A DNA stretch of 64,000 nt. It comes from Bacteroidota bacterium. GTDB lineage: Bacteria > Bacteroidota > Bacteroidia > Chitinophagales > Saprospiraceae. This document shows positions 22,548-27,739 of the stretch, one piece after another (position 1 is the stretch's first letter; every line of letters starts with the position of its first letter). The notes beneath the pieces are model-generated. The model was not told where the DNA came from. It ran no database searches and saw nothing but the letters and a program-made list of their open reading frames with translations. The translations under genes and the position numbers were made by a program. Where the stretch lies: positions 186,001 to 250,000 of the forward strand of contig JAKQHS010000002.1 of the NCBI GenBank assembly GCA_029557915.1, given 5' to 3'.

Positions 22548-23249
22548 ATGAAAAAATTACATTCAACCTTCCTTACAGCATGCAGTCTTTTAATCCTTTC
22601 ATGCGCCACACTTAAGAATCAAAACAGCGAGCCGTCTACCGCCCTGGAACGCTTACAGGCAGGGAATGCCCGGTTTTATTCCCATCACATGAAACATCCC
22701 GACCAGGGTCCCAAACGGGTTGAGACGACCGCATTAAAACAACAGCCCTTTGCGGTGGTGGTCACCTGTTCGGATTCCCGGGTAGCCCCGGAAATCCTCT
22801 TTGATGAAGGGATCGGGGACCTCTTTGTGATCCGCAACGCCGGAAATATCGTGGAAGAAGAAGACGTCCTGGCAAGTATTGAATACGCGGTGGTCCATCT
22901 GGGTGTGCGGACCATCCTGATCATGGGCCATGAGGAATGCGGAGCCATCCAGGCTATGGTAGCAGGCCCTGATCACGCCGGCCACCATGAACCGGCCCAT
23001 ATTGAAGCGATCCTGGATAAATTAAAAAAAGAAGAGGAGGAAAAGGCCGTATTGGACAGCCCCGCACGCGGCCAGGAACGGGTCCATCAATGTGTGGTCG
23101 CCAATGTAATGCATGGAATCCATGCGGTCGAAGACACGCTGAAATCCGAGGATATGGTCCCGAAAGAAGGCCTGTCCATCCTGGGGGCCGTATATGATAT
23201 TCATTCCGGAAAGGTCGTTTTTTTACCCGCCGGCCGGAGCACCTTTTAG
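22548..23249 (+). CDS. beta-class carbonic anhydrase, lipoprotein
   Basis: 233 residues. Zinc ligands and active site: Cys74, Asp76 and Arg78 (VTCSDSRVAPE), His128 and Cys131 (GHEECGA). Interconverts CO2 and bicarbonate. Most beta carbonic anhydrases are cytosolic; this one has a lipoprotein signal peptide with Cys19 (LILSC), placing it in the periplasm or outer membrane, where it could supply or trap CO2. Full length. A GC-rich hairpin overlaps the stop codon. It is followed by the regulatory region of the Phe/Tyr operon. Confidence 0.92.
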   Translation: MKKLHSTFLTACSLLILSCATLKNQNSEPSTALERLQAGNARFYSHHMKHPDQGPKRVETTALKQQPFAVVVTCSDSRVAPEILFDEGIGDLFVIRNAGNIVEEEDVLASIEYAVVHLGVRTILIMGHEECGAIQAMVAGPDHAGHHEPAHIEAILDKLKKEEEEKAVLDSPARGQERVHQCVVANVMHGIHAVEDTLKSEDMVPKEGLSILGAVYDIHSGKVVFLPAGRSTF

Positions 23250-23260
23250 GCCGGTTATTT
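23230..23260 (+). terminator. weak terminator after carbonic anhydrase
   Basis: CCGGCC (23230-23235) pairs with GGCCGG (23249-23254) across the stop codon and is followed by TTATTT. The stem is short (6 bp) but all G-C. Confidence 0.35.
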
Positions 23261-23333
23261 CCCGCGAGAGAAAAAGAATTAAAACAGCCTTTTTTGTTAT
23301 TTTCAAATTTTATATATGTACAATAAATATTTT

Positions 23334-23372
23334 TTCCCGCGGGAACAAATCCGGAAAATCCGTATAAATTTG
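23334..23372 (+). promoter_or_regulatory. Phe/Tyr operon promoter with palindromic operator candidate
   Basis: TAAATTTG at 23365-23372 matches the Bacteroidota -7 consensus. Where the -33 TTG should lie there is instead a perfect 12-bp palindrome, TTCCCGCGGGAA (23334-23345), plus a smaller CGGA/TCCG inverted repeat (23352-23362). A DNA-binding regulator at the palindrome is inferred. The start point would be about 23378, a few bases before the leader peptide ATG. Confidence 0.5.
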
Positions 23373-23383
23373 TCCCGGTGAAA

Positions 23384-23449
23384 ATGAGTACCTATTTCGG
23401 TTTTTATTTTAGCTACTATTATTCCAATGGTAGGATGACCGAAGTTTGA
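23384..23449 (+). CDS. Tyr/Phe-rich attenuation leader peptide
   Basis: A 21-codon open frame (ATG to TGA) with Tyr at residues 4, 8, 11, 12 and 13 and Phe at 5, 7 and 9: eight aromatic codons within ten positions. It begins about 6 bases after the predicted transcription start, ends 22 bp before a strong hairpin, and precedes pheA by 77 bp. This is the classic layout of an attenuator leader peptide, in which ribosome stalling at Tyr/Phe codons under amino acid shortage alters RNA folding. It is too short for usual gene finders. Confidence 0.82.
   Translation: MSTYFGFYFSYYYSNGRMTEV
23394..23445 (+). promoter_or_regulatory. pause (1:2) hairpin of the attenuator
   Basis: ATTTCGGT (23394-23401), inside the Tyr/Phe codon run, can pair with ACCGAAGT (23438-23445), just before the leader stop codon: 8 bp with one G-U. 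A ribosome stalled on the aromatic codons would block it. A clear antiterminator partner for the terminator arm was not resolved by eye. Confidence 0.5.
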
Positions 23450-23471
23450 TTCAAATTCAAAAAAAATATAA

Positions 23472-23515
23472 ACTGAAGGGAGTCCTTGAAAATTCGAGGC
23501 TCCCTTCAGTGTTTT
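23472..23515 (+). terminator. attenuator terminator upstream of pheA
   Basis: Perfect 11-bp stem ACTGAAGGGAG (23472-23482) with CTCCCTTCAGT (23500-23510). The loop can extend the stem by CCT/AGG and GAA/TTC pairs, and GTTTT follows. The U tract is short, but stem and position between leader peptide and pheA fit a regulated terminator. Confidence 0.72.
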
Positions 23516-23526
23516 AAGAAACTGTT

Positions 23527-24399
23527 GTGACAAAATTGAATACAGACCAGACCAAACCGGAGACCCTGCGGGTAGCCATCCAGGGCTACCGGGGAGCTTT
23601 CCACGATATCGCGGTCCAGCGCTATTTTAAGGGTCATCCCCTGGAGGTGGCAGAGACCGAAACCTTTGAAGAAATCGTGCAACTGGTGGAAAAAAAACAG
23701 GTGGATTTTGGGGCGATGGCGATAGAAAATACCATTTACGGTATGCTGATGCCTAACTACAACCTGCTCAACAAAGCCAGGGTATCGATACATGGTGAAG
23801 TTTATCTCCGGATTCAGCAGAACCTGATCGCCTGGCCGGGCCAGAAGCCGGAAGACCTCAAAGAGGTGCATTCCCACCCCATCGCCATAGAACAATGCCG
23901 GGAATATTTCAAAGCCTGGCCCCATATCAAACTGATTGAGTCTGTGGATACCGCCTGGAGCGTCAGGGAGGTGAAGGAAAAAAAGCTGAAAAGCCGGGGA
24001 GCCATTGGCAGCACCCTCGCCGCACAGCTGTACGGCCTGGAAATCCTCGTACCGTCGATTGAAACCAACAAGAAAAATTTCACCCGTTTCCTCATCATTG
24101 AGCGGAAAGGCAGTTCGAATCCCCTGCCCCATTCCAACAAAGCTTCCGTGATTTTTTCCCTCACCCATGAAGTGGGAAGCCTTCACCAGGTCCTTTCCAT
24201 ACTGGCTTCCCAGGAAGCCAATCTCACCAAAATCCAGTCCATTCCCATTCTTGGCAAACCTTTTGAGTATGCATTCTGGGTAGACCTGACGGCCGATCAC
24301 ATGCAAAAACTACTCACCGCCATTGATTCCATCGCACCCATGATCCATGATCTGAAAGTGCTGGGCATTTATCCAAAAGGAGCGCATTATGACCATTAA
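23527..24399 (+). CDS. pheA: prephenate dehydratase
   Basis: 290 residues, GTG start. PDT domain from about 15 (VAIQGYRGAFHDIAVQRYF), with the catalytic TRF motif in NFTRFLIIERKG near 200, then a C-terminal ACT domain (about 207-287; HEVGSLHQVLSIL and KIQSIPILGKPFEYAFWVDL) that binds Phe for feedback inhibition. Converts prephenate to phenylpyruvate. It has no chorismate mutase domain; that activity sits on the last gene of the operon. First structural gene of the Phe/Tyr operon, behind an attenuator. Overlaps the aminotransferase gene by 11 bp. Confidence 0.95.
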   Translation: MTKLNTDQTKPETLRVAIQGYRGAFHDIAVQRYFKGHPLEVAETETFEEIVQLVEKKQVDFGAMAIENTIYGMLMPNYNLLNKARVSIHGEVYLRIQQNLIAWPGQKPEDLKEVHSHPIAIEQCREYFKAWPHIKLIESVDTAWSVREVKEKKLKSRGAIGSTLAAQLYGLEILVPSIETNKKNFTRFLIIERKGSSNPLPHSNKASVIFSLTHEVGSLHQVLSILASQEANLTKIQSIPILGKPFEYAFWVDLTADHMQKLLTAIDSIAPMIHDLKVLGIYPKGAHYDH

Positions 24400-25561
24400 A
24401 CCAGCCCACCGGATCAATACCGTGGAAGAATATTATTTTTCTTCCAAACTCAGGGAGATCGCAGGCATGCGTGCCGGGGGCGCGGATGTCCTTAATCTCG
24501 GCATCGGATCGCCGGACCTGCCTCCCCATCCTTCCGTGATCGCCACCTTGCATGAATGGGCGCTCAGGCCCGATGCCCACGGTTATCAAGGTTACCAGGG
24601 TAGGCCGGAACTAAGGCTGGCCATGGCAAACTGGTACCGGTTGTATTTTGGGGTGAGCCTGGATCCTGAAAAAGAAGTCCTTCCCCTCCTGGGTTCAAAG
24701 GAAGGGATCATGCATATTTCCATGGCCTTCATCAATCCGGGGGACCGGGTACTGGTGCCGGATCCGGGCTATCCTACTTACAGTGCCGCGACCAAACTCG
24801 CCGGAGGAATACCGGAGACCTATGACCTCCTGCCTGAAAACAACTGGAAACCGGATATGCGAGCCCTGGAAAATATCGCTCCCGGTGAAATCAAACTGAT
24901 GTGGCTCAACTATCCTCATATGCCCACCGGACAAGCTGCCGATCTCAAAACCATGGAGACCTTGCTGAATTGGGCCCGGTCCAGGAACATCCTCCTGGTC
25001 AACGACAATCCGTACAGTTTTATCCTCAACCGCAACTACCTGTCCATCCTTTCCCTTGATGGGGCCCGGGAGCAGTCGATTGAACTGAACTCCATGAGCA
25101 AAGCCCAGAACATGGCAGGTTGGAGGGTGGGCATGGCCATTTCAAACCCTGAGTTTATCAACCACATCATCCGGTTTAAAAGCAATATGGACAGCGGCAT
25201 GTTTTTACCCGTTCAAATGGCTGCCGTGAAAGCGCTGGAACTCGGTCAGGATTGGTATGATCAGCTCAACGAAATCTATACCGGCCGGAAAGACCTGGCT
25301 GCGGCCATCCTGAAGGCTGCCGGATGTACCCTGCAGGATAACCAGCAGGGTTTGTTCCTCTGGGGCAGGATCCCCGATAAGTATGAAGACAGTTATGCCC
25401 TTAGTGACCGGATCCTCCGGCAAGCCCATGTCTTTATAACCCCGGGGGGTATTTTTGGCAACAACGGAAACCAATACCTCAGGATTTCTCTCTGCAGCAA
25501 ACCGGAAGTGCTGCAGCAAGGCCTCGACCGAATTCAAAAACTTAAACTGCAGGCATCATGA
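24389..25561 (+). CDS. class I/II aminotransferase for Phe/Tyr synthesis
   Basis: 390 residues. Fold type I PLP enzyme: substrate-side LNLGIGSPDLPPHPSV, YQGYQGRPELRLAMANWY, cofactor residues in NYPHMPTGQ and NDNPYSF, and the Schiff-base Lys238 in SMSKAQNMAGWRVG. The operon context makes it the likely transaminase for phenylpyruvate and 4-hydroxyphenylpyruvate, giving Phe and Tyr. Sequence alone would also allow aspartate or LL-diaminopimelate aminotransferase. Overlaps pheA and tyrA by a few bases, so translation is coupled. Confidence 0.9.
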   Translation: MTIKPAHRINTVEEYYFSSKLREIAGMRAGGADVLNLGIGSPDLPPHPSVIATLHEWALRPDAHGYQGYQGRPELRLAMANWYRLYFGVSLDPEKEVLPLLGSKEGIMHISMAFINPGDRVLVPDPGYPTYSAATKLAGGIPETYDLLPENNWKPDMRALENIAPGEIKLMWLNYPHMPTGQAADLKTMETLLNWARSRNILLVNDNPYSFILNRNYLSILSLDGAREQSIELNSMSKAQNMAGWRVGMAISNPEFINHIIRFKSNMDSGMFLPVQMAAVKALELGQDWYDQLNEIYTGRKDLAAAILKAAGCTLQDNQQGLFLWGRIPDKYEDSYALSDRILRQAHVFITPGGIFGNNGNQYLRISLCSKPEVLQQGLDRIQKLKLQAS

Positions 25562-26403
25562 GCAGGTTATGTCTCATTGGGGTGGGCCATATCGGCGGGT
25601 CCCTTGCCCTCGCGGGAAAAAAAGCCGGGCTGTTTTCTAAAGTCACCGGGGTGGATGTCGACCCGGATAACCTCGAAAAAGCACTATCCCTGGGACTGAT
25701 CGAGGAAGCCCTTCCCCTTGCGGAAGCCATCAATGGTTCTGACCTGGTCGTCCTGGCTGTGCCGGTAAACGTCATGGTCAACCTGATCCCCCAGGTGCTT
25801 GACCTGGTTGACGACCAGCTGGTCACCGAAGTGGGTTCTACTAAAACCGCCATTCTGAAAAGCATAGCCCAGCATCCGAAAAGAAAACAATTTGTGGCCA
25901 GCCACCCTATGGCCGGTACGGAATTTTCGGGACCTGAATCCGCCCAGGCCAATCTTTTTACAGGCAAGACCTGCGTCCTGGTGGATACGGCTGACAGCGA
26001 TCCGGAGAAAGTAAAACAGCTTGAAAACGTTTATTCCGAGATCAATATGCGGCTGGTCTACCTGGACAGCGAATCCCATGACCTGCATGCCGCCTATGTG
26101 TCGCATATTTCACACATCAGTTCTTTTGCACTGGCCCTCACCGTACTGGCTAAGGAGAAGGATGAAAACCAGATTTTTCAACTGGCCAGCGGTGGTTTCA
26201 GTTCTACGGTCAGGCTGGCCAAAAGCTCACCGGACATGTGGATCCCCATTTTTGAACAAAACCGGGACAACGTGCTCGACGTGCTGGATGAGCACATCAG
26301 CACTTTGTCCCGTTTCAGAAGCCTCCTCATCAAAAGGGATTTTAAGACTTTCCGGCACCTGATCGAAGAGGCCAACCAGATTAAAAAAATACTCAAAACC
26401 TGA
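25558..26403 (+). CDS. tyrA: prephenate dehydrogenase
   Basis: 281 residues, start overlapping the aminotransferase stop by ATGA. N-terminal NAD(P) Rossmann motif GVGHIGGSLALA, followed by VDVDPDNLEKAL (acidic end of beta-2, favouring NAD+), then the catalytic His in ASHPMAGTEFSGP and the helical dimerisation half (HAAYVSHISHISSFALA). Oxidatively decarboxylates prephenate to 4-hydroxyphenylpyruvate for tyrosine. No ACT domain, so feedback control would act elsewhere, for example by attenuation. Full length for the short TyrA form. Confidence 0.94.
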   Translation: MSRLCLIGVGHIGGSLALAGKKAGLFSKVTGVDVDPDNLEKALSLGLIEEALPLAEAINGSDLVVLAVPVNVMVNLIPQVLDLVDDQLVTEVGSTKTAILKSIAQHPKRKQFVASHPMAGTEFSGPESAQANLFTGKTCVLVDTADSDPEKVKQLENVYSEINMRLVYLDSESHDLHAAYVSHISHISSFALALTVLAKEKDENQIFQLASGGFSSTVRLAKSSPDMWIPIFEQNRDNVLDVLDEHISTLSRFRSLLIKRDFKTFRHLIEEANQIKKILKT

Positions 26404-26434
26404 AATACATTATCAAATAAACAAAGCAAAAAAT

Positions 26435-27526
26435 ATGGAAACAGCAAGTCTATCCACCAGGGCCTTCATGGAAAAAGGATTTACAAAACCTTACCTGATC
26501 GCCGGCCCCTGCAGTGCAGAAACGGAAGAACAGGTCATGGCCACCGCTGCACAGATCGCGGCAGAAGGCATCAAACCGGACCTGTTCCGTGCCGGAATCT
26601 GGAAGCCGCGCACCCGTCCGGGCAGTTTCGAAGGTATTGGCAGGCCCGGATTGAACTGGCTGAAAAAAGTCAAGGAGGAATACGGCTGGAAGACGACTAC
26701 CGAGGTCGCCAATACCCAGCATGTGTTCGATGCACTGAAAGCAGGGGTCGATGTTTTATGGATCGGGGCAAGGACTACCGTTAATCCATTTTCCGTCCAG
26801 GAGATTGCCGATGCCCTGGTCGGGGTCGACATCCCCGTACTGGTCAAAAACCCAATCAATCCTGACCTGAGCCTTTGGATCGGGTCCCTGGAACGTTTGA
26901 AAAAAGCCGGCATCACCCGCCTGGGCGTCATACACCGGGGATTCAGTGCTTTTGGCAAATCCATCTACCGCAATACCCCCAGGTGGGAATTGCCGATCGA
27001 ACTGATCAGGCAATACCCCGATCTTTTTATCATCTGTGATGCCAGCCATATTTGTGGTAACCGGCCCGGACTTTGGGAGGTCGCCCAGCGTGCCATGGAC
27101 CTCAATTATGACGGGATCATGATCGAAACCCATTGCAACCCGGACGCGGCCTGGAGCGATGCCGCCCAGCAAGTCACCGGGAGCGGCCTCAAAAACATCC
27201 TTGACCGACTTGTCGTCCGGCAGGAAAAGTCAGCGGATCCGAAATTCATAGATAATATTGAGGACATCCGTCACCAGATCGATGTCATCGACAACGAATT
27301 GCTCAACATCCTGGGCGAACGGATGAAACTGGCAGACAAAATTGGCATGTTCAAAAAAATGAACAATATCAGTATTCTTCAATCCAGCCGCTGGAATGAG
27401 ATCATCCAGAAAAGCCAGGAAAAAGGCAAGGCGCTGGGATTGAGTGAAGACTTTATCACTAAGGTGCTCACCGCCATTCATGAAGAGTCCATTGAGCATC
27501 AGGAGAAGATTATGATCGAATCGTGA
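26435..27526 (+). CDS. DAHP synthase-chorismate mutase fusion
   Basis: 363 residues. Residues about 1-265 are a KDO8P/DAHP synthase barrel (AGPCSAET, FRAGIWKPRTRPGSF, VLVKNPINPD, DASHICG and the metal-binding ETHCNPDAA); residues about 272-360 are an AroQ-class chorismate mutase (IRHQIDVIDNELLNILGERMKLADKI). The first domain condenses PEP and erythrose 4-phosphate, the entry to the shikimate pathway; the second makes prephenate, the substrate of pheA and tyrA in the same operon. This domain order (mutase at the C-terminus) is characteristic of Bacteroidota. The stop codon abuts a 9-bp repeat array. Confidence 0.95.
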   Translation: METASLSTRAFMEKGFTKPYLIAGPCSAETEEQVMATAAQIAAEGIKPDLFRAGIWKPRTRPGSFEGIGRPGLNWLKKVKEEYGWKTTTEVANTQHVFDALKAGVDVLWIGARTTVNPFSVQEIADALVGVDIPVLVKNPINPDLSLWIGSLERLKKAGITRLGVIHRGFSAFGKSIYRNTPRWELPIELIRQYPDLFIICDASHICGNRPGLWEVAQRAMDLNYDGIMIETHCNPDAAWSDAAQQVTGSGLKNILDRLVVRQEKSADPKFIDNIEDIRHQIDVIDNELLNILGERMKLADKIGMFKKMNNISILQSSRWNEIIQKSQEKGKALGLSEDFITKVLTAIHEESIEHQEKIMIES

Positions 27527-27622
27527 TAGGATTAATAGGATTTATAGGATTTATAGGATTTATAGGATTAGTAGGATTAGTAGGATTGGTAGGATTGGTA
27601 GGATTGGTAGGATTAGTAGGTA
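27527..27622. repeat. 9-bp tandem repeat (TAGGATTNN)10
   Basis: Ten exact-length units (27527-27616) of TAGGATT followed by AA, TA, AG or GG, beginning directly after the stop codon of the DAHP synthase gene. Same family as 13711-13812. It can pair with the reverse-oriented array at 27740-28062. Confidence 0.93.
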
Positions 27623-27739
27623 AGATTTTATTTCGTTGGGCGCGGCTTAATTAAAAAGCCTGTCCTGGTTCCTAAGGCGGTCGGATGTGCTCACATTTGT
27701 TCAGCAAAAACTGAACCGAATCCTTACAGCCTAATCTGC
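27623..27739. other. spacer between two inverted repeat arrays
   Basis: 117 bp with no gene, promoter or structured element that I can support. It would form the loop if the flanking arrays pair. Confidence 0.5.

Follow-up and report, generated by a model that had tools for sequence, protein, structure and literature searches.

A highly probable ribosome-mediated Phe/Tyr attenuator ahead of pheA in a Saprospiraceae genome, and related leaders across Bacteroidota

The aromatic amino-acid operon and its leader

Within the window (the whole 64,000-nucleotide stretch analyzed here, part of a Saprospiraceae genome assembly of 5,038,466 bases in 209 contigs), a set of genes for phenylalanine and tyrosine synthesis lies downstream of a carbonic anhydrase gene that ends at 23249 on the same strand. 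Pfam assignments confirm the operon that an earlier reading of the sequence (hereafter the original prediction) had placed behind a short leader, namely pheA, an aminotransferase gene, tyrA and a DAHP synthase/chorismate mutase gene; they likewise agree with its description of TyrA as a protein that lacks an ACT domain, with PDH_N and PDH_C found and no Pfam ACT hit at E 0.001. An ACT match below threshold (23.7 bits, cut-off 27) lies in PheA, not in TyrA. The features of the locus are:

23365 to 23372, + strand: -7 box of a promoter, TAnnTTTG, TAAATTTG (read from the sequence)
23384 to 23449, + strand: leader peptide ORF of 21 codons, MSTYFGFYFSYYYSNGRMTEV (sequence, shuffles, alignment with the leader of a genus-mate)
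23394 to 23445, + strand: protector (1:2) hairpin, AUUUCGGUU at 23394-23402 with GACCGAAGU at 23437-23445 (MFE fold)
23432 to 23448, + strand: predicted antiterminator 5' strand, AGGAUGACCGAAGUUUG, within the coding tail of the leader (stalled-ribosome folds, duplex energy)
23469 to 23486, + strand: predicted antiterminator 3' strand, UAAACUGAAGGGAGUCCU, overlapping the terminator 5' arm (folds, two-genome alignment)
23472 to 23510, + strand: predicted intrinsic terminator hairpin, -27.4 kcal/mol (fold, two-genome consensus)
23511 to 23518, + strand: short, weak U-tract, GTTTTAAG (sequence)
23527 to 24399, + strand: pheA, prephenate dehydratase (Pfam PDT, 172.6 bits; open from a GTG at 23527)
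24389 to 25561, + strand: class I/II aminotransferase (Pfam PF00155)
25558 to 26403, + strand: tyrA, prephenate dehydrogenase with no ACT hit (Pfam PDH_N and PDH_C; NCBIfam NF006307 over its cut-off)
26435 to 27526, + strand: DAHP synthase/chorismate mutase fusion (Pfam DAHP_synth_1 and CM_2)

The leader ORF runs from an ATG at 23384 to a TGA at 23447-23449, and direct reading upholds the five Tyr and three Phe codons within ten residues that the original prediction had counted in this 21-codon peptide: codons 4 to 13 contain Tyr at positions 4, 8, 11, 12 and 13 and Phe at 5, 7 and 9. Judged from the sequence, this Phe/Tyr-rich ORF is not a product of chance, since shuffling the 277-nt upstream region 10000 times, dinucleotides preserved, never produced an ORF with eight Phe/Tyr residues in ten. 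The leader aligns with that of G001, which is the sole genus-mate among the search results and the partner in every two-genome comparison with the window below, and a 207-nt stretch folds better than all 200 of its shuffles (z -5.57). Sequence, conservation and shuffles alike point to a short ORF that looks translated and carries a run of codons for the amino acids made by the operon. The exact -7 box reported shortly before the leader start is also present, with TAnnTTTG at 23365-23372 ending 11 nt 5' of the ATG; inspection by eye found no TTTG -33 element upstream of this box. A short way 5' of the box, at 23334-23345, lies a perfect palindrome, TTCCCGCGGGAA, with ACCCGGGT at the same place in the genus-mate; it could be an operator or could have arisen by chance.

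Between the leader and pheA, folding bears out the perfect 11-bp terminator hairpin at 23472-23510: ACTGAAGGGAG...CTCCCTTCAGT form 11 perfect pairs, followed by a bulged U and an inner helix. This hairpin supplies an intrinsic terminator between the leader and the first gene, with a U-tract that is short (four T in eight nucleotides); a sigma-70/terminator consensus scan of 23240-27700, which needs five T in eight, returned no terminators. The position of the carbonic anhydrase gene on the same strand would suit a reading in which the hairpin is the constitutive terminator of that gene and the ORF is accidental. A promoter box and a leader stand between the two, and the arrangement recurs in relatives; this reading is very improbable, the least likely of those we considered.

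Mutually exclusive pairings and ribosome position

In the MFE fold, the protector hairpin encloses a smaller hairpin that takes in the last Tyr codons, and its outer helix is kept in the two-genome consensus with one one-sided change. A hairpin overlapping the aromatic codons had been described before as a pause hairpin; the structure is present, but is better named a protector (1:2) hairpin because it competes with the antiterminator. The latter, which the original prediction could not resolve by eye, was found as a pairing of 23432-23448 with 23469-23486 that, in predicted folds, buries the terminator 5' arm. In last two coordinate digits, the pairs are A32-U36 with G82-U86, C39-C40 with G78-G79 and A43-G48 with U69-U74, and the stalled-ribosome fold leaves G37-A38 and G80-A81 as an internal loop. 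The 5' strand begins 9 nt past the last Phe/Tyr codon. The option of codons 5-7 pairing directly with the terminator arm, weighed by eye, was dropped; it would act in the wrong sense.

Stalled-ribosome folds for codons 8-13 give the antiterminator an energy of -11.7 to -12.6 kcal/mol. As an isolated duplex it reaches -15.9 kcal/mol, which 15 of 5000 shuffles equal, and 21 of 5000 shuffles do as well as the corresponding duplex of G001; a stricter partition-function measure, matched by 204 of 2000 shuffled tails for the window, is alone not significant. Alignment of the two genomes shows that the spacer between the strands has diverged while the strands themselves are kept: the 3' strand is identical, and the 5' strand is changed at its first base only, turning an A-U pair into G-U.

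The dependence of these pairings on ribosome position was examined with a footprint model, in which the ribosome covers 16 nt from the P site and only RNA 3' of it, up to the terminator loop, is folded. For the window, burial of the terminator arm is 0.50-0.57 with the A site on codons 4-13 and 0.13-0.18 on codons 14-17; it recovers in part at codon 18 (0.42), is close to zero from codon 19 and is 0.00 at the stop codon. The modeled antiterminator is therefore free as long as the A site has not moved beyond codon 13, the last Tyr, and is largely lost thereafter; footprints between 12 and 18 nt in the model move this switch point roughly one codon in either direction. The G001 antiterminator has gone by the time the A site reaches the last Tyr (0.15, a value equalled by 885 of 2000 shuffles). 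Folding without a ribosome leaves the terminator arm free in the window (0.08) and buries it in G001 (0.61); as modeled, the default state differs within the genus, since the G001 fold favors the antiterminator and that of the window leaves the arm free.

Taken with results from relatives described below, these pairings make it very likely that the element is a ribosome-mediated transcription attenuator responding to charged tRNA-Phe and tRNA-Tyr, with the pheA-aminotransferase-tyrA-DAHP synthase/CM operon under its control. With Phe and Tyr plentiful, the leading ribosome would pass codon 13 and cover the leader tail at 23432-23448; the antiterminator would then be blocked, the hairpin at 23472-23510 would form, and transcription would stop near 23515. 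Were either amino acid short, the ribosome would stall within codons 4-13 and break the protector hairpin, leaving 23432-23448 free to pair with 23469-23486, burying the terminator 5' arm and allowing read-through into pheA. On a leader devoid of ribosomes, the protector hairpin is predicted to favor termination in the window. The attenuator would very probably switch the Phe/Tyr synthesis genes on when those amino acids run short; tight ribosome-polymerase coupling, termination in vivo and the starvation response itself are parts of this scheme that we infer.

The leader and its pairings in relatives

Conservation of the leader codons had been set in advance as one point on which the original prediction could fail, and the leader proved to recur in all three sample sets (110 order/family regions, 40 class-level regions and 77 named loci), which overlap in part. 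Counting all start codons, a Phe/Tyr leader precedes pheA in 99 of the 110 order/family regions and is absent from 11. Same-family loci make up 104 of these regions, from 66 genera; 97 of them (62 genera) carry the leader, and among the seven that do not is L034, where the contig extends only 147 nt upstream. The class-level set, with 40 upstream regions taken from the 58 of 197 searched genomes that gave a pheA match and 39 of them outside the order, shows the leader in 28, the same-order locus L138 included. Genomes with no pheA match (60 of 199 in the order/family search, 139 of 197 at class level) stand outside all counts, and the query detects only relatives of the window PheA. Among the named loci, 80 in total with three dropped for having less than 150 nt upstream, 57 of the 77 usable have a leader, distributed as follows over groups assigned from record titles:

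Cytophagales/Flammeovirgaceae/Cyclobacteriaceae: 17 of 17
Marinilabiliaceae/Carboxylicivirga: 11 of 11
Other Bacteroidales: 14 of 19
Solitalea: 2 of 2
Saprospiraceae: 5 of 13
Flavobacteriales: 1 of 6
Others: 7 of 9

Records titled Sericytochromatia and Micrarchaeota (L180 and L236) hold pheA genes 48% and 41% identical to that of the window; these are perhaps mis-binned contigs.

The codon bias of these leaders bears on a reading in which the ORF is untranslated, the RNA senses a protein or a metabolite, and the Phe/Tyr codons arise incidentally from its U-rich composition. The stretch is indeed U-rich and strongly folded, and when 12 other residue pairs were tried, 11 gave 0 to 9 of 108 regions while Leu/Phe, which has the T-rich codons in common, gave 30. 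Against this, an ATG ORF with at least six Phe/Tyr residues in ten occurs in 98 of 108 regions (two of the 110, with less than 250 nt upstream, being left out) and in only 34 of 2160 dinucleotide shuffles and none of the 108 reverse strands; at the level of eight in ten, none of the 2160 shuffles of related regions qualifies. Elsewhere in the same genome, codon runs for other amino acids occupy matching places: a His leader, MLIHHGHHHHHLLQHANG, with eight His codons, precedes hisG (L151), and a Trp leader, MKKTNNSWWWQVPDPRVV, with three Trp codons, precedes a gene for a chorismate-binding enzyme (L152), each followed by a hairpin. In Rfam, too, neither this region nor any of nine related loci gave a hit at cut-off, and a sensing RNA of this kind is accordingly very improbable. 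On account of the His and Trp leaders and their hairpins, attenuation looks like a habit of this organism as far as its sequence tells. No clear Ile/Leu/Val leader was seen upstream of two PF00920 loci (L153 and L154).

Two of 146 leaders start with GTG or TTG, one of which (L107) is probably spurious. In 42 of the 146, the peptide ends in F/Y-G-x-Pro directly before the stop codon, an ending that may reflect RNA pairing or slow termination at Pro-stop. As to the downstream genes, tyrA lies downstream of pheA and on its strand in 90 of the 104 genomes for which upstream DNA was retrieved, out of 139 with a pheA match; its main match is on another contig in 13, which may be contig breaks, and only a fragment was found in G195. 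Three short tyrA fragments were left out of this count (G128, G131 and G195), that of G131 being on the same contig as pheA. Saprospiraceae pheA genes that have no leader include those of G035 (L012), G157 (L074), G215 (L083) and G176 (L064). In the first three of these genomes tyrA is on a different contig; leader and operon may have been lost together there, or the contigs may be broken.

A hairpin lies 3' of 142 of the 146 leaders, at -9 kcal/mol or better in 138; leaving out the four with no hairpin and one with a hairpin of -2.1 kcal/mol gives a set of 141 attenuators. The 8-nt tail holds more than four T in 102 of the 141 and four T, as in the window, in 39, the window included. These tails, and the distance from hairpin to gene, bear on the choice between transcriptional control and a variant in which leader and stalling are kept and the hairpin acts mainly on translation, hiding the pheA initiation region until stalling opens it. 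In the window, the hairpin ends at 23510, only 16 nt before the pheA GTG at 23527, and the U-tract is short, as translational control would allow. Across relatives, by contrast, more than 16 nt separate the hairpin of the last leader from the beginning of the PheA match in 90 of 96 loci (distances being to the protein match, the start codon unproven), most tails hold more than four T, and the upstream hairpins of tandem leaders (below) lie well over 100 nt from pheA, which translation would hardly explain. We regard control mainly of translation as unlikely, though a good deal less so than a sensing RNA.

Antiterminator pairing recurs with these terminators. Many relatives carry a copy of the terminator 3' arm (such as GGGGCUU or GGGACUU) just after or inside the leader end, able to pair with the terminator 5' arm. 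The 20 nt around the stop codon reach -10 kcal/mol with their own arm in 98 of 141 attenuators, as compared with 33% of swapped pairs; the own arm does better than the median swapped arm in 116 and ranks within the top tenth in 66. When a 20-nt window is moved along the RNA, complementarity to the 5' arm peaks at the stop codon, at -10.1 to -11.0 kcal/mol (positions -9, -3 and +3), versus -2.8 to -6.3 kcal/mol away from it. In a narrow post-stop window, G001 scores poorly (-1.5), because its antiterminator strand precedes the stop codon. With segments placed instead by the last Phe/Tyr codon, own pairings in the 141 attenuators average -13.98 kcal/mol against -9.61 (sd 0.20) for swapped ones, a difference that none of 20000 permutations reached, nor did any when the test was confined to the 126 attenuators with distinct arms. 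The 28 class-level attenuators behave in the same way (-16.2 own, -11.3 swapped, 0 of 20000 permutations). Counted from the last Phe/Tyr codon, the median distance to the beginning of the antiterminator strand is 12 nt in the family set (137 of 141, at -9 kcal/mol or better) and 10 nt in the class-level set (28 of 28).

Applied to the 141 attenuators, the footprint model gives a mean burial of the terminator 5' arm of 0.72 with the A site on Phe/Tyr codons and of 0.19 at the stop codon. Burial is higher in the stalled state by more than 0.3 in 123, the difference falls below -0.1 in none, and 77 satisfy a strict definition (stalled above 0.5, stop below 0.2). Footprint model, swap test, duplex shuffles and the alignment with the genus-mate support an antiterminator that cannot coexist with the terminator and whose formation depends on where the ribosome stands. 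Folded with no ribosome, the terminator arm is free (below 0.2) in 38 of the 141 and buried (above 0.5) in 84; in view of this mixture, the protector hairpin is, so far as such folds tell, not a general part of the design, and the untranslated leaders of many relatives would be expected to read through. Leader, terminator, mutually exclusive pairings and conservation have all been computed for the window element, and the attenuation reading of the original prediction draws support from the conserved leader, the antiterminator (by duplex shuffles, not by the stricter measure), the genus-mate and the family-wide swap test.

Known attenuators and tandem leaders

Ribosome-mediated attenuation is a textbook mechanism. 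In the pheA (pheL) attenuator of E. coli, a leader ORF rich in product codons, a protector, an antiterminator and a terminator precede the prephenate dehydratase gene. All of these are read or predicted in the window too; the window leader differs in mixing Tyr with Phe codons, and the operon in comprising both branches plus DAHP synthase/CM. Rfam models fell short of their cut-offs: the window scored 15.7 bits with Phe_leader (RF01859, cut-off 55) and 22.1 bits, on the other strand, with Bacteroid-trp (RF01692, cut-off 49), no T-box riboswitch matched at gathering score in a whole-window scan that gave only two tRNAs, and the Phe, Trp and T-box leader models found nothing at cut-off in the window region or nine related loci. 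Bacteroid-trp, described in Rfam as 'Bacteroidete tryptophan peptide leader RNA' and also entered in a table of PMC2864571, resembles the window element in being a peptide leader that serves an aromatic amino-acid pathway in Bacteroidetes and is unlike it in the amino acid concerned.

Leader-peptide attenuation as a kind is already known, also in Bacteroidota. For Flavobacterium psychrophilum, passages of PMC9723704 describe strong clues to it upstream of amino-acid operons, together with structured 5' elements upstream of pheA and hisG that are kept in other Flavobacteriaceae and have no Rfam hits. Those elements come from the same phylum as ours and also occur at pheA; in these passages, however, the pheA element is not expressly called one of the leader-peptide kind, and neither an antiterminator nor a tandem is given. 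Because these 5' elements and leader-peptide clues were already reported in Flavobacterium, the weight that the original prediction put on novelty seems somewhat high. Parts of other papers mention long 5' UTRs in Bacteroides thetaiotaomicron with short ORFs reminiscent of leader peptides (PMC7366714) and count leader genes in Bacteroidetes among others (PMC4833913); in the main text of the attenuator survey PMC2965389, the terms 'Bacteroid' and 'pheA' are absent.

The window locus has a single leader, and tandem Phe/Tyr leaders occur in 45 of the 110 order/family regions, two in 43 and three in 2, the three-leader assignments being doubtful. All 45 are same-family loci (of 104), from 31 genera. 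Examples are L003, L005, L007, L033 and other Saprospiraceae loci, the leaders extending up to about 400 nt upstream of pheA. The two starts are 128-175 nt apart in 42 of 45 pairs, both leaders have their own hairpin (-7.5 kcal/mol or better) in 42 of 43 two-leader loci, and Phe and Tyr both occur in all 90 tandem leaders compared. A TAnnTTTG box lies within 60 nt 5' of the first leader at 78 of 99 loci, as against 2 of 47 second or third leaders; within the 45 tandem loci, the figures are 41 first and 2 second leaders, from which it follows that the pair is most likely carried on one transcript.

For Salmonella mgtCBR, PMC3641672 describes a leader RNA that holds two leader ORFs and their attenuators, the signals being ATP and proline; that tandem senses two different signals, whereas in the Saprospiraceae both members of a pair contain codons for Phe and for Tyr, and the window has one copy. 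A literature search, with supplements and subscription papers outside its scope, yielded among the matches listed no same-signal tandem of leader-peptide attenuators and no resolved pheA antiterminator from Bacteroidota. Neither a resolved antiterminator with a position rule, nor a spread over many Bacteroidota, nor a same-signal series was met in this literature, which does not imply absence from print; the same-signal tandem in relatives is a probable new variant. We consider it reasonably likely, with less assurance than for the window element itself, that Phe+Tyr attenuators are widespread at Bacteroidota pheA and obey a position rule, in which the antiterminator strand begins about 10-12 nt past the last Phe/Tyr codon and a ribosome that has cleared those codons covers the strand directly, often with no protector, and that part of the Saprospiraceae has a same-signal tandem behind one promoter.

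If so, such a tandem should multiply repression, and would allow a single sensor to be compared, in nature, with two like ones in series. For attenuation of the classic type, ribosome and polymerase have to advance together, and to our knowledge how close this coupling is in Bacteroidota has seen few tests; a Phe/Tyr attenuator found repeatedly at a single locus across many Bacteroidota would report on it directly. Passages in PMC3155529 and PMC9976891 state that translation in Bacteroidota works without Shine-Dalgarno pairing by the ribosome.

A recent within-genome origin of the tandem copies was considered by comparing their similarities. Between genomes, mean similarity was 0.388 for first with first, 0.337 for second with second and 0.332 for first with second copies; within a genome, first and second copies averaged 0.361.
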